This document shows positions 49,263 through 58,684 of a stretch of DNA of 64,000 nucleotides, piece by piece. The notes under the pieces are model-generated. The model ran no database searches. It was not told the origin of the DNA and saw only the letters and a program-made list of their open reading frames with translations. The translations under genes were made by a program, and so were the position numbers. Positions within the stretch are counted from its first letter, which is position 1. Each line of letters opens with the position of its first letter. Source of the DNA: Nocardioides ginsengisegetis (GTDB taxonomy: Bacteria; Actinomycetota; Actinomycetes; Propionibacteriales; Nocardioidaceae); assembly GCF_014138045.1 (NCBI RefSeq), contig NZ_JACGXA010000001.1, forward strand, positions 2,837,001 through 2,901,000, given 5' to 3'.

Positions 49263-49296
49263 CTTTGTCCCGGAACGGCGCTTTTCCGGGACAAAG
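49263..49296. terminator. Perfect 13-bp stem-loop between convergent genes
   Basis: CTTTGTCCCGGAA (49263-49275) and TTCCGGGACAAAG (49284-49296) pair around 8 nt. Position between the regulator and kinase 3' ends suits a bidirectional terminator. GGGACAAAGG also occurs at 47567-47576 before the regulator gene. Confidence 0.7.
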
Positions 49297-49343: not shown

Positions 49344-50726
49344 TCACTCCTGGGGACGGACCACAGCGGGAAGATCGACCCAGAAGGCAGCACCCTCGCC
49401 CGGCGTTGACTCCACCCCCATGAGTCCCCCGTCGCGCTCGACGATGGAGCGCGACAGGGCGAGGCCCAGGCCCGTCCCACGGACCTCGGGGTCGGCGAAG
49501 CGCACGAAGGGCTTGAACACGTCGGCCTGCTGCTCCGGGCTCAGGCCGGGGCCCGTGTCGTGGACGGTGATGCGCACGTGCGCGATCCCCTGGTCGTCGG
49601 ACGACGCGGATGTCACCACACTGACCCGCCCCCCGGGGTGGTTGTAGGCGATCGCGTTGCCGACCAGGTTCGCGAGCACCTGCCGCAGCCCGGACGGCGT
49701 GGTCAGGACGCACTCGGTGATGTCCGGGGAGAAGGAGACCGTCACTCCGGCGGTGAGTGCGGGCGCCCGCAACCAGTGGACGACGTCACTCACGGCCTCC
49801 GCGACGCTGACCGCCTGGCGGGGCGTACCGCCGCCCAGCTCCTGCCCCGTCTCCAGGAGGGAGTCGATGACCGCGAGCAGCTGCTCAGCGGCGCTGAGCA
49901 CCACCCCCGAGTCCTTGACGACGCCGGTGGCGAATCCCGCGACCGTGTCCCGGTCGGGCCCCTCCTGGTCCGACTGCTCGACCAGGTCCGCTGCCTCGTC
50001 GGCCAGGAGCTCGGCGGTGCCGATGATGGCGCTGATCGGGGTGCGCAGCTCGTGGCCGAGCGCCGCGAAGAAGTGCTGCTGGCTCTCCCTGGCCTGGTCA
50101 CCTCGGGCGATGGCATCGGCCAGGGACACCCGCGCCCGCTCCGCGGCCATGCGTGAGGCCAGGGCGGCAGTGAGCACCTGCACCGCGGCCAGGGTCTCCG
50201 CCGGCCACGGGCCGGGCTCGGCACGGGCCACGCCGATGCTGCCGTAGCTCGTGCCGTCGCAGAGCATGCTGCTGCCCACGGCGGCGTAGGAACCGCCGGC
50301 CTCGATCTCGGTGCGATCGCCCTCCGCCTCCCCGTCGAGCAGGCCGGTGTCGGTGATGCCCACGACCCCGTGCTCGCGGACCTGCTGGGAGAACCACGGA
50401 AGCGACAGGGCGCGGCCCGCACCGGCGTCGGCGCCCACATGGGCCGTGGGGATCACGCCCTCGGCGACGCGCTCCATCAGCCAGGCGCGGTCCCCGAGTC
50501 GGATCCAGCCCTGCTCCTGGTCGGGGCGCAGCGTGGTCGACACCACCGACAGGCGTGACGCGGTCGGGTTGACCGATGCGAGGGCGTCCACCGTGACCGT
50601 GAAGGCCTCGGTCAGGCTGAGCCCACCGGTCAGGATCCTGGTCACCGCCGCCTGCACCTCGGGCGGGATCGGGGCGGGCGTCGCGAACACGAGGGCCCGC
50701 TCGGGTCCGAGCACGTCGTCAGCCAC
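49344..50726 (-). CDS. Soluble GAF-domain sensor histidine kinase
   Basis: This 460-residue protein has a GAF-like domain at about residues 25-195 and then the dimerisation/phospho-acceptor helix with His225 in ALGHELRTPISAIIG. A HATPase domain follows with LVGNAIAYNHPGG (N-box), DTGPGLSPEQ and GTGLGLALSRS (G-boxes). No membrane segment is present, so it senses an intracellular ligand. The GTG start overlaps the P450 stop by 8 nt, so translation is coupled. A receiver-only protein is encoded three genes upstream, the likely partner. Confidence 0.88.
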   Translation of the reverse strand: MADDVLGPERALVFATPAPIPPEVQAAVTRILTGGLSLTEAFTVTVDALASVNPTASRLSVVSTTLRPDQEQGWIRLGDRAWLMERVAEGVIPTAHVGADAGAGRALSLPWFSQQVREHGVVGITDTGLLDGEAEGDRTEIEAGGSYAAVGSSMLCDGTSYGSIGVARAEPGPWPAETLAAVQVLTAALASRMAAERARVSLADAIARGDQARESQQHFFAALGHELRTPISAIIGTAELLADEAADLVEQSDQEGPDRDTVAGFATGVVKDSGVVLSAAEQLLAVIDSLLETGQELGGGTPRQAVSVAEAVSDVVHWLRAPALTAGVTVSFSPDITECVLTTPSGLRQVLANLVGNAIAYNHPGGRVSVVTSASSDDQGIAHVRITVHDTGPGLSPEQQADVFKPFVRFADPEVRGTGLGLALSRSIVERDGGLMGVESTPGEGAAFWVDLPAVVRPQE

Positions 50727-51852
50727 CGAGGACCACCCTCGCCGGCGAGGGCCGCAGGCCACGGCTGGCGTCGATGCGCACCGGGCCGGACGCCCGGAGC
50801 CGCTGCTCGACGCCTCGCTCCACCAGGTGCACCAGCTGCGCGAGGGCCAGGTTGCGGCCGGGGCACGCGTGGGGGCCGGCGCCGAACGGGAGCCAGGCAC
50901 CCGGCCGTGCCGTGTCGTCGCACCAGCGGGTCGGGTCGAAGTCCGTCAGCGGCTTGAAGCCGGACTCCGGGCCGGGCGCCACCTCGCCGAGCTGGCCGAG
51001 CGCGCGGGGGCTCACGACGAGGGGCGTGTACGCCGGCAGGGTCACGCCGCCGATCACCGACTCGTCGACAGAGATCCGCGGGAGCAGCCAGGTCGGCGGG
51101 TAGAGACGCAGGGTCTCCCAGACGATCGCGGTCCGCAGCCGCGGATCGGCGCCGGCCGCCGCAGCTACGTCCGGATGGGCTGCGAGCTGCTGGAGCACCC
51201 AGGCACCGGCCGCGATCGGCACCTGGACTCCGGCCGCCAGGGCAGTCGCCATCGCGCTGGACGCGGAGACACCGACCTCGGCGAGGGCGGCACGCAGGTC
51301 GCGGAGCGCCCGCTGCTCGCGCCGACGGTCAACGGACCACCGACGAGGCGGTCGTGCCGCGCTGATCACCGGCGCCAGCGCGTCGACCCACGTCAACGTC
51401 AGCATCGCGATGTGGTCTCGGGTTGCCTGACCCGCAGCCGGCACCAGCGCTGCGGTCGTCGACCGGCTCACGGGCGTCCGGAGCAGGTCGAGGGGGTGGA
51501 CGGTGATCTCGTCGAGGCCAAGGGGCGCGTCGGGCCAGACGGCGGCGAGCTCGGCGACGAAGACGCCCCGTCCCACGGCGACGGCATCGGACGTGAGGGC
51601 TGGAGTGTGCTTGTCCGGACGCCCTTCCGGTTGATCTGCACCCATGCCCGCGAGTGGGCGTCGGCTCGCGTCGAAGGGGATCGGGAAGCGACGTACGTCC
51701 TTGAGGACGGCGCGGGCGTCGGCCAGCGTCGGGACGAGCACCGGGCCGCGCGGGTTGAGCCAGACCGGGGTCGGTGACCCGACCGCGGAAGCAACGGCAC
51801 CGAGGATCCCGTCGGGATCCCCGGTGCCGTCATCGGGTGTCGCCAACGACAT
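50719..51852 (-). CDS. Cytochrome P450 with atypical I-helix, coupled to a short peptide gene
   Basis: This 377-residue P450 has the ExxR motif (Glu246-Thr-Leu-Arg249) and the haem loop FGAGPHACPG with ligand Cys330. The I-helix, normally AGxETT, reads AAGVQVP at residues 206-212. The acid-alcohol pair used for oxygen activation is thus missing, a trait of some P450s with unusual substrates. No ribosome site precedes the ATG; it overlaps the stop of the 28-residue peptide gene (TGATG). This suggests the P450 acts on that peptide, as in known P450-modified RiPPs such as biarylitides and tryptorubin-type peptides; that role is inference. Confidence 0.9.
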   Translation of the reverse strand: MSLATPDDGTGDPDGILGAVASAVGSPTPVWLNPRGPVLVPTLADARAVLKDVRRFPIPFDASRRPLAGMGADQPEGRPDKHTPALTSDAVAVGRGVFVAELAAVWPDAPLGLDEITVHPLDLLRTPVSRSTTAALVPAAGQATRDHIAMLTLTWVDALAPVISAARPPRRWSVDRRREQRALRDLRAALAEVGVSASSAMATALAAGVQVPIAAGAWVLQQLAAHPDVAAAAGADPRLRTAIVWETLRLYPPTWLLPRISVDESVIGGVTLPAYTPLVVSPRALGQLGEVAPGPESGFKPLTDFDPTRWCDDTARPGAWLPFGAGPHACPGRNLALAQLVHLVERGVEQRLRASGPVRIDASRGLRPSPARVVLGG

Positions 51853-51938
51853 CAGTGCGTCGGGACCCACGGGTAAACGCCGCGCAGAGCGCGCAGGGCG
51901 CGCGAGGTCGCGCGGCGCTGCTTGATCTTCGAGATCAC
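51852..51938 (-). CDS. Short peptide gene, candidate RiPP precursor for the P450
   Basis: A strong ribosome site AAAGGAG lies five bases before a GTG that opens a 28-residue frame. The first 19 residues form a basic, helical leader (MISKIKQRR, later ALRALR). The last nine, GVYPWVPTH, concentrate the only aromatic residues: Tyr22, Trp24 and His28. Tyr and Trp are spaced i,i+2, as in the three-residue cross-links made by P450s in biarylitides. The stop overlaps the P450 ATG by one base. The position, length, codon integrity and ribosome site argue for a real gene. The final product and cleavage site are unknown. Confidence 0.72.
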   Translation of the reverse strand: MISKIKQRRATSRALRALRGVYPWVPTH

Positions 51939-52030
51939 CGAGGCTCCTTTCCTGGGGGTGGATCCGTGCCCCGAGTGCCCGGATGAGGGCGGACCGCTCC
52001 GTCGAGAGCTTCAGGCGTGTCCCCATGGGC

Positions 52031-52483
52031 TCAGCTGAGGCCATCGAGGAGGTCGGCCAGTTCTTGACGGCGAATCGGCTTGGGCAGGAAGAGACTAATG
52101 CCCAGCTCGTTGAGAATGGGGCGTTCATCGCGAGCCGACGCGCTGACGATCACGACGTTCATGTCCCGGGCGTGTTCGGGGTGGGCATTGAGCCAGCGGG
52201 CGACGTCGATGCCGGACATCCGCGGCATGGACAGGTCGAGGAGCAACAGGTCGTAGTTCCCCGCGGAAACCGCCTCGACAGCCTCCTGCCCGTCGGTCAC
52301 CTCGTCGACGACGTGGCCGAGCTTCTCGAGCATCCGGCGGAGCAGCTCGCGCACGATGTCGACGTCGTCGGCGACGAGCACCCGCAACACGCGAGCGGTC
52401 TGGACCGCGTCCGCTGTGTGGACAGCCGCGTCCGGATGCGGGACAGGCGTCCCCGCGTCGACTGCGTTGTCACTGTCGGTCAT
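52031..52483 (-). CDS. Receiver-only response regulator
   Basis: This 150-residue protein has a variable 30-residue N-terminus and one CheY-like receiver domain: acidic pair Asp39-Asp40, phospho-acceptor Asp83 in LLLLDLSMPRMSG, and Lys135 in FLPKPI. There is no DNA-binding output domain, so it must signal by protein contact. GAGGG precedes the ATG. It is the first gene of the unit that continues with the short peptide, P450 and GAF histidine kinase. Confidence 0.9.
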   Translation of the reverse strand: MTDSDNAVDAGTPVPHPDAAVHTADAVQTARVLRVLVADDVDIVRELLRRMLEKLGHVVDEVTDGQEAVEAVSAGNYDLLLLDLSMPRMSGIDVARWLNAHPEHARDMNVVIVSASARDERPILNELGISLFLPKPIRRQELADLLDGLS

Positions 52484-57532: not shown

Positions 57533-58684
57533 TCAGCCCGCGGGCGTCCCCGTCCGCGGGCCGGGCCACGGCGTGGTGCGCCCCATGTCGAGCGCGCGCT
57601 GGGCCACGAACGGGTCGGCCTGGTTGTGCAGCCACGGCCGGCCGAACCAGACGAAGCCGTCGACCAGGGCGTCCGCGAGGTGCCGCACGTCCCGGGGCAT
57701 CCCGTAGCGGGCGGCGCCCGGCTGGGCGGTCGGCGGGATGCCGAGGGTGACGCACCGGCGCATCTTCTGCGTCGAGCAGGTGCGGGCGTCGTTCTTGAGG
57801 CCGCCCGGCGTGGACGGGATGACCTCGCCCCACGTCATGGGCCGGCCGTTCTGGGCGGTGTCGACGATGAAGTGCTTCGAGCCGAAGCCGTCGCGCTTGA
57901 GGATGCGCACGATCGCGGCACCGTGGCGGATGTTGCTGCTCGCGCTGTTGTAGTGGGTGGAGTCCAGTGCGAAGCCGCGGGCGTGGCGGATGCCGGTGCG
58001 CTTGAGGATCGCGGCGCAGCGCTCGGGGTCGTGCCCCTTCTCGTTCTCGCACCAGTCGGCCGCGCCGGCGTCGATGTAGACGCTGGTGCGTTTGAGGGCC
58101 GAGAGGGTCTTCGTGGCGAAGGTCAGCAGCTTGGCCGTCACCGTCCTGTTGGGCGCGCACCACAGGAACGGCCCGTCGGGCTGCATCACGACCAGCGTCG
58201 GGGTTTCCGCGATGCCGCGGGCCAGGCCCTTGATCCACGCGCGGTAGCTGGTCCGCTCGGCCTGGCTCGGCGGTCGGTTGCAGGCCTCGTGCTCCCACGG
58301 CGCCATCCGGAAGACCGCGAGCTGCACGAGCTTGCTCGGGTCGCCGTCCTGCGAGGCGGCGATGTAGCTGCGGACCGTGTCCTCGATGAGGGCGTCGGGC
58401 ACGAACGAGCCATACCACTTCGTCCGCGGTCGGAGTGCGACCTTGCCGATGAGGTGCTTCGTGGTGCCCGACGCGGAGAGGTACGGCGCCCACACCTGGT
58501 CCTGGGGCCCGTCGTAGACGCCCCAGAGCCGGTTCGCCAGCGGGTTGTGCGGGTTGGCCCTGGCCGGCTTCTCCGGCACCTGCCAGACCTCCCAGCGGGG
58601 TGTCGAGCGGGCCGCGGCCGCCGGCTCAGCGGCGAGGGCGCCGATCATCAGGACGGCGAAGAGCAGGGCTGCGAGCTTGTTCAT
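57533..58684 (-). CDS. Secreted glycoside hydrolase family 6 (endoglucanase/cellobiohydrolase-like)
   Basis: This 383-residue protein has a signal peptide (cleavage near AAAA, residue 25) and GH6 landmarks: TSVYIDAGAADW (YIDAG motif), ARGFALDSTHYN, and FIVDTAQNGRP before GLKNDARTCS. GH6 enzymes cleave beta-1,4-glucan with inversion. No carbohydrate-binding module is visible, so it may act on soluble or cell-associated glucans. It is convergent with aspS, 10 bp apart. Confidence 0.88.
   Translation of the reverse strand: MNKLAALLFAVLMIGALAAEPAAAARSTPRWEVWQVPEKPARANPHNPLANRLWGVYDGPQDQVWAPYLSASGTTKHLIGKVALRPRTKWYGSFVPDALIEDTVRSYIAASQDGDPSKLVQLAVFRMAPWEHEACNRPPSQAERTSYRAWIKGLARGIAETPTLVVMQPDGPFLWCAPNRTVTAKLLTFATKTLSALKRTSVYIDAGAADWCENEKGHDPERCAAILKRTGIRHARGFALDSTHYNSASSNIRHGAAIVRILKRDGFGSKHFIVDTAQNGRPMTWGEVIPSTPGGLKNDARTCSTQKMRRCVTLGIPPTAQPGAARYGMPRDVRHLADALVDGFVWFGRPWLHNQADPFVAQRALDMGRTTPWPGPRTGTPAG

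Follow-up and report, generated by a model that had tools for sequence, protein, structure and literature searches.

A Short Peptide Gene Kept Together With a Cytochrome P450 and a Two-Component Pair in Nocardioides as a Candidate Precursor of a P450-Cross-Linked Peptide

Introduction

What does an open reading frame (ORF) of only 28 codons contribute when it lies directly 5' of a cytochrome P450 gene, and does it encode the peptide on which this P450 acts? The question arose from a stretch of 64,000 nucleotides of Nocardioides ginsengisegetis (assembly GCF_014138045.1, contig NZ_JACGXA010000001.1, positions 2,837,001 to 2,901,000), here called the window, for which a first-pass annotation had proposed that this ORF encodes a precursor of the RiPP kind (ribosomally synthesized and post-translationally modified peptide). 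The benefit that the makers of P450-cross-linked ribosomal peptides draw from them is often unclear, and for the biarylitides the discoverers of myxarylin themselves ask what the function in the producer may be (PMC8708641). Our analysis demonstrated that the short ORF is a genuine member of a conserved peptide family and that it belongs to a four-gene unit with the P450, a histidine kinase and a response regulator. We consider it reasonably probable, from comparison of the related sequences, that the ORF encodes the precursor of a P450-modified RiPP in which the P450 cross-links Tyr22 and Trp24. The constant kinase partner offers a direct handle on function.

Results

The peptide gene (51852..51938, minus strand) runs from a GTG at 51938 to a TGA that ends at 51852, and the ribosome-binding site AAAGGAG (51944..51950, minus strand) precedes the GTG by 5 bases. 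In its translation, VISKIKQRRATSRALRALRGVYPWVPTH, a leader (residues 1-21) is followed by the invariant Tyr22-x-Trp24 and the tail VPTH; apart from Tyr22, Trp24 and His28 the peptide contains no Tyr, Trp, Phe or His. The peptide stop shares one base with the ATG of the P450 gene at 51852 (TGATG), and no AGGAGG-like site is visible in the window sequence just 5' of this ATG. The coordinates and length, the ribosome-binding site, the three aromatic residues and the overlap with a P450 gene that has no visible ribosome site of its own were thus described correctly in the first-pass annotation, the gene lying on the minus strand.

When the P450 was searched for in 341 genomes of the family Nocardioidaceae, with a full-length match at E <= 1e-50 counted as an orthologue, it was found in 58 genomes, all of which belong to Nocardioides (58 of the 215 genomes of the genus, about a quarter). 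Dereplication of 94 locus sequences left 58 loci, which yielded 60 peptides. As anticipated for a RiPP-like precursor, every one of the 58 loci carries, directly 5' of the P450 gene, an ORF with 24-31 codons whose product has Y-x-W followed by 4-7 C-terminal residues. A stricter test, which demanded 22-36 codons, a Shine-Dalgarno-like site of at least 4 bases and a YxW no more than 9 residues from the stop, was passed by 57 of the 58 orthologous loci. In the controls, 50 loci with distantly related P450s (53 were considered and three dropped, their P450 frame not being placeable) and 923 stretches drawn at random from the same loci on the same strand, not a single case passed. The sole miss (L139) consists of overlapping tandem copies and shows no Shine-Dalgarno-like site because the first copy begins 12 bases from the contig end. 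The genome concerned (G134) carries a tandem array of peptide genes that is split by the contig edge (L139:12-276 and L172), in which three copies, overlapping by ATGA, precede the P450 gene and further ones follow a regulator gene on the facing contig; the two contig ends have 88 bases in common. The occurrence of several precursors is known from RiPP classes (PMC13417212).

The peptide model matched 59 genomes of the genus, namely the 58 with the P450 and, in a weak and chance-like manner (E 0.006), G135. The kinase, searched independently, was likewise found in 59 of the 215, the same 58 and G277, whose kinase gene runs up to the edge of a contig. Peptide, P450 and kinase therefore co-occur in an identical set of 58 genomes. 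At the level of the order, P450 matches at 1e-40 were obtained in 40 of 391 genomes, all within one of 40 genera, and the matches obtained in the class beyond the genus were all partial and mostly C-terminal (1e-20 to 1e-24); all these searches, from family and genus to order and class, cover genome samples with the best 5, 7 or 37 candidates per genome scored, and absence elsewhere is unproven.

Across the 60 peptides the Tyr and the Trp never change, while the highest alignment entropies are found right beside them, at the position before Tyr (3.0 bits) and at the one between Tyr and Trp (2.8 bits). The residue after Trp is Arg in 58 of 60 peptides and Val in the window peptide and in L146, and the next position is Pro in 52 of 60. 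Additional aromatic residues occur in 25 of 60, and the leader is basic, the mean net charge of the peptides being +6.3. Substitution rates from 24 independent pairs with P450 identity above 60% gave a peptide dN/dS of 0.55 (bootstrap 0.39-0.72), compared to 1.10 and 1.78 for the same bases read out of frame and to 0.29 for the P450. Within the peptide, the leader (0.77) is less constrained than the YxWRP core (0.22), which includes the codons of the predicted cross-link site, Tyr22-Pro23-Trp24 (51867..51875, minus strand). Neither loci lacking the frame nor substitutions blind to its codons, which the first-pass annotation had named as the observations that would speak against a precursor, were encountered. 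The constraint on the aromatic pair and the tail fits a core that is modified and a leader whose sequence is specified only loosely, and an invariant Tyr and Trp amid variable flanks suggest, as a pattern of residues, a bridged core. A test for purifying selection had also been suggested for His28, and a Trp-His bond as an alternative to Tyr-Trp; this part did not hold, since His is the C-terminal residue in only 3 of 60 peptides. A Trp-His cross-link is thereby rejected, and Tyr-Trp is the link that the comparison supports.

The P450 (50719..51852, minus strand) comprises 377 aa. Its Pfam p450 match (1.2e-18) covers only residues 241-340; an AlphaFold2 model (pLDDT 88) predicts a P450 fold for the window protein, and the haem ligand Cys330 as well as E246 and R249 of the ExxR motif are each present in 58 of 58 sequences of the locus alignment. 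Most P450 monooxygenases carry an acid and a Thr, the acid-alcohol pair, in the I-helix. In this family the corresponding segment (residues 206-212, AAGVQVP in the window) is a nearly invariant AAGxQVP, and the pair is replaced by Gln210 in 58 of 58 and Val211 in 57 of 58 proteins. A more non-polar distal pocket has been described for RufO, too (PMC12186263).

The tight coupling of stop and start that had been noted in the window is indeed seen there but is not universal: among the 58 loci all three relations of the peptide and P450 frames occur, and many loci have a gap. In 14 of the 58 the P450 frame offers no ATG, GTG or TTG from the stop of the peptide gene up to the conserved N-terminal part of the P450, and in each of these 14 a CTG of the same frame overlaps that stop (CTGA). 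For 10 of the 14, the P450 could start at a GTG or TTG within the peptide gene, and in L124, L131, L135 and L144 no such alternative was present within the eight codons checked. The stretch after the CTG gave a pN/pS of 0.89 in frame and of 0.91 and 1.43 out of frame (15 of 36 loci in that frame, mostly start-less ones). The recurrent CTG suggests that the P450 in the 14 loci may start there by re-initiation or else at an unrecognised start.

The first-pass annotation had missed that peptide and P450 genes are the middle part of a larger unit in the order regulator, peptide, P450, kinase. The first gene (52031..52483, minus strand; start uncertain, ATG at 52483 or a GTG further 5') encodes a stand-alone response regulator in which Pfam recognises a receiver domain only, and the last (49344..50726, minus strand) a histidine kinase of 460 aa with an N-terminal sensor region, HisKA and HATPase (Pfam), present in all 58 genomes of the module. 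A kinase with HisKA and HATPase domains and a receiver protein together constitute a two-component system. The kinase gene follows the P450 gene in 58 of 58 loci, with an overlap of 4 bases in 40 of them and, taking the first candidate start, a distance of at most 13 bases between P450 stop and kinase start in 55; in the window the overlap between the kinase gene, which starts with GTG, and the end of the P450 gene amounts to 8 bases. Just 3' of the kinase stop, at 49264..49295, the sequence contains a perfect 12-base inverted repeat (TTTGTCCCGGAA / TTCCGGGACAAA, 8-base loop) that is possibly the terminator of the operon. The regulator gene is located 5' in 57 of 58 loci, and the remaining genome (G134) has one on the facing contig beside its further peptide copies. 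A crude motif for the phospho-acceptor Asp was found in 47 of 57 regulator translations, at least 5 of the rows being fragments from a wrong match, and most related regulators are similar in length to the receiver-only protein of the window.

In the kinase, His225 is invariant in the 31 of 58 sequences that were aligned. Since only 6 of the 58 kinases reach a mean hydropathy of 1.6 over 19 residues, and these at differing places, the kinase is, judged by its sequence, probably soluble and without a consistent membrane span. Sub-threshold Pfam matches to GAF were obtained in the sensor region of two of three members, and in the window's own kinase Pfam gave no GAF match, even below threshold; in fold searches with the kinase, the matches were filled by catalytic cores. 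Further copies of the kinase gene were seen in two genomes. In G180 one lies behind a thiolase gene (L169:5940-7406), and the 13.5 kb of sequence covered at this site contain no match to the P450, the regulator or the peptide; in G147 a tandem copy follows the first (L171:6511-7650), with a weak P450-like fragment at L171:6316-6699.

Ten loci were also compared over about 8-10 kb on each side for ORFs of at least 90 residues. Regulator, P450 and kinase are all that these ten have in common, and the unit thus sits in differing surroundings; five closely related loci share further neighbours. In the window itself, a gene of a family 6 glycosyl hydrolase is located outside the unit (57533-58684, minus strand).

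Discussion

The conserved peptide, its pattern of selection, the fixed gene order and the co-occurrence of the genes are observed. As is general for P450 RiPPs, a short precursor gene is kept as a pair with its neighbouring P450 gene and combines conserved aromatic residues with a variable core. In the mechanism that we propose, expression of the operon would co-produce peptide, maturase and two-component pair, and the basic leader would bring the precursor to its dedicated P450, which would connect Tyr22 with Trp24 through their side chains (i to i+2) with the loss of 2 H; a proteolytic step would then release the modified peptide. Such chemistry has precedents, given that P450Blt makes cross-linked Tyr-x-Trp tripeptides when its substrates are altered (PMC12352619), and that ApyO-related precursors include two with YLW (PMC13192836). 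The tandem peptide genes of G134 and the RiPP cross-linker ApyO as top curated NCBI model for the P450 also count in favour of a RiPP.

Several observations weigh against a cross-linked RiPP. The named RiPP P450s are only distantly related to this one: the ApyO model scores 61.5 bits against a cut-off of 525 and only somewhat above terpene oxidase models (50.5 bits), and P450Blt ranks 17th in Foldseek among many near-tied P450s with 19-21% identity. P450Blt was also not among the best 50 matches listed by VIA-align, which excludes nothing. No dedicated protease or exporter is evident among the genes common to the ten wide loci. Moreover, the ORF search itself demanded YxW, so that the invariance counts only since no locus failed, and the two invariant residues could also form a binding motif.

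If the peptide is modified as proposed, the constant two-component pair raises the possibility that the peptide, or the P450-peptide reaction, would set the activity of the co-encoded kinase. That the mature peptide is the input of this kinase is a tentative proposal, with the balance of probability on the other side. In its full form the unit would be a peptide-signal circuit, in which a precursor is cross-linked by the O2-dependent P450, the soluble kinase reads the peptide inside the cell and the receiver protein relays the phosphate; this too we regard as doubtful. A relay inside the cell would agree with a receiver-only regulator and with the fact that no exporter is evident, although neither proves it. 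A signalling role for P450-modified RiPPs was not met with in the literature passages covered, and if true, the circuit would represent a P450-made peptide hormone or an oxygen- or redox-gated peptide signal.

Alternatively, the peptide might be an ordinary exported natural product whose production is regulated by the two-component pair without sensing of the product, as two-component pairs are common near biosynthetic genes. This explanation is possible but not favoured. The window regulator has no DNA-binding output domain and most of its relatives are of similar length, and no exporter is evident among the genes common to the ten wide loci; both arguments are indirect.

A purely regulatory role, in which the peptide would act as a small protein free of any covalent modification and use Tyr and Trp as contact residues for binding to the P450 or to the kinase, is unlikely. 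The fixed co-occurrence with the kinase and the basic leader would suit such a protein, and P450-type and GAF-type accessories of the Streptomyces conservons have been proposed as kinase modulators (PMC13343842). However, the two aromatic residues never change while those between and before them vary freely, the leader is only weakly constrained where a binding helix would be expected to be conserved, and one genome carries the peptide gene in tandem copies.

Still less probable is a P450 substrate that undergoes other chemistry, such as hydroxylation, the making of a redox cofactor or a link from Trp to Arg or to the backbone. Such P450s are plastic, ApyO giving C-C, C-N or C-O links on small changes (PMC13192836), and both the frequent Arg after Trp and the further aromatic residues of some peptides would offer partners; yet Val takes the place of this Arg in the window and in L146, so that Arg is hardly needed for the bond, and Tyr and Trp alone are universal. 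Finally, a chance ORF, or a translated leader that merely loads ribosomes on the P450 message, as the TGATG overlap of the window might suggest, is made very unlikely by the codon-level selection with its frame test and by the empty controls, and the gaps and differing frame relations of the other loci likewise contradict it.

Independent of these alternatives, the family contributes P450s whose I-helix is unusual and nearly invariant (AAGxQVP) and which match the ApyO model only far below cut-off, and its 57 distinct peptide sequences are available as candidate substrates for enzyme work.

Among the papers listed in searches of the open-access literature, none was recognisable as dealing with a regulator-peptide-P450-kinase unit, subscription work on the mining of P450 RiPPs lying outside this coverage. 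The nearest known kinds are the biarylitides and aminopyruvatide. The biarylitides (bytA/bytO, P450Blt, myxarylin) are, like the system described here, minimal peptide-P450 pairs with aromatic-x-aromatic spacing, and MKYLW and MKYIW are reported among their precursors (PMC13417212). However, the rule by which biarylitide precursors are searched for asks for a length of 5-8 residues and for aromatic residues at both position 3 and position 5 (PMC13417212), whereas the 60 peptides have 24-31 residues and Y-x-W is not C-terminal but followed by 4-7 residues. The P450 does not stand out as close to P450Blt by sequence or fold ranking, and the dedicated two-component pair is a feature of the unit described here. 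The aminopyruvatides (ApyA/ApyO) resemble the family in carrying Y-x-Y, W-x-Y or YLW near the C-terminus of a longer precursor (PMC13192836) and in ApyO being the best-scoring, if distant, curated model for the P450. ApyO needs an Arg to act (PMC13192836), but the most conserved Arg of our peptides follows Trp instead of lying five residues before Tyr. Furthermore, the peptides lack a C-terminal Asp, and no third enzyme is found among the genes common to the ten wide loci, an MNIO not having been searched for by name.

Atropopeptides of the tryptorubin type are likewise made from a leader-core precursor encoded next to the P450, and the RALR of the window peptide and the RSLR of three relatives, six to three residues before Tyr, recall their KSLK anchor, yet the six KSLK-type motifs named in PMC11450843 occur in none of the 60 peptides, and the atropopeptide linkage is WxxW/WxxY compared to the proposed i,i+2. 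The conservons (AGPS), with the accessories CvnE (P450) and CvnF (GAF), are actinobacterial operons, too, in which a kinase is found together with a P450 whose role is unknown (PMC13343842). Their small GTPase, roadblock protein and CvnC are not among the genes common to the ten wide loci, and the Nocardioides unit has a receiver protein and a peptide gene instead.
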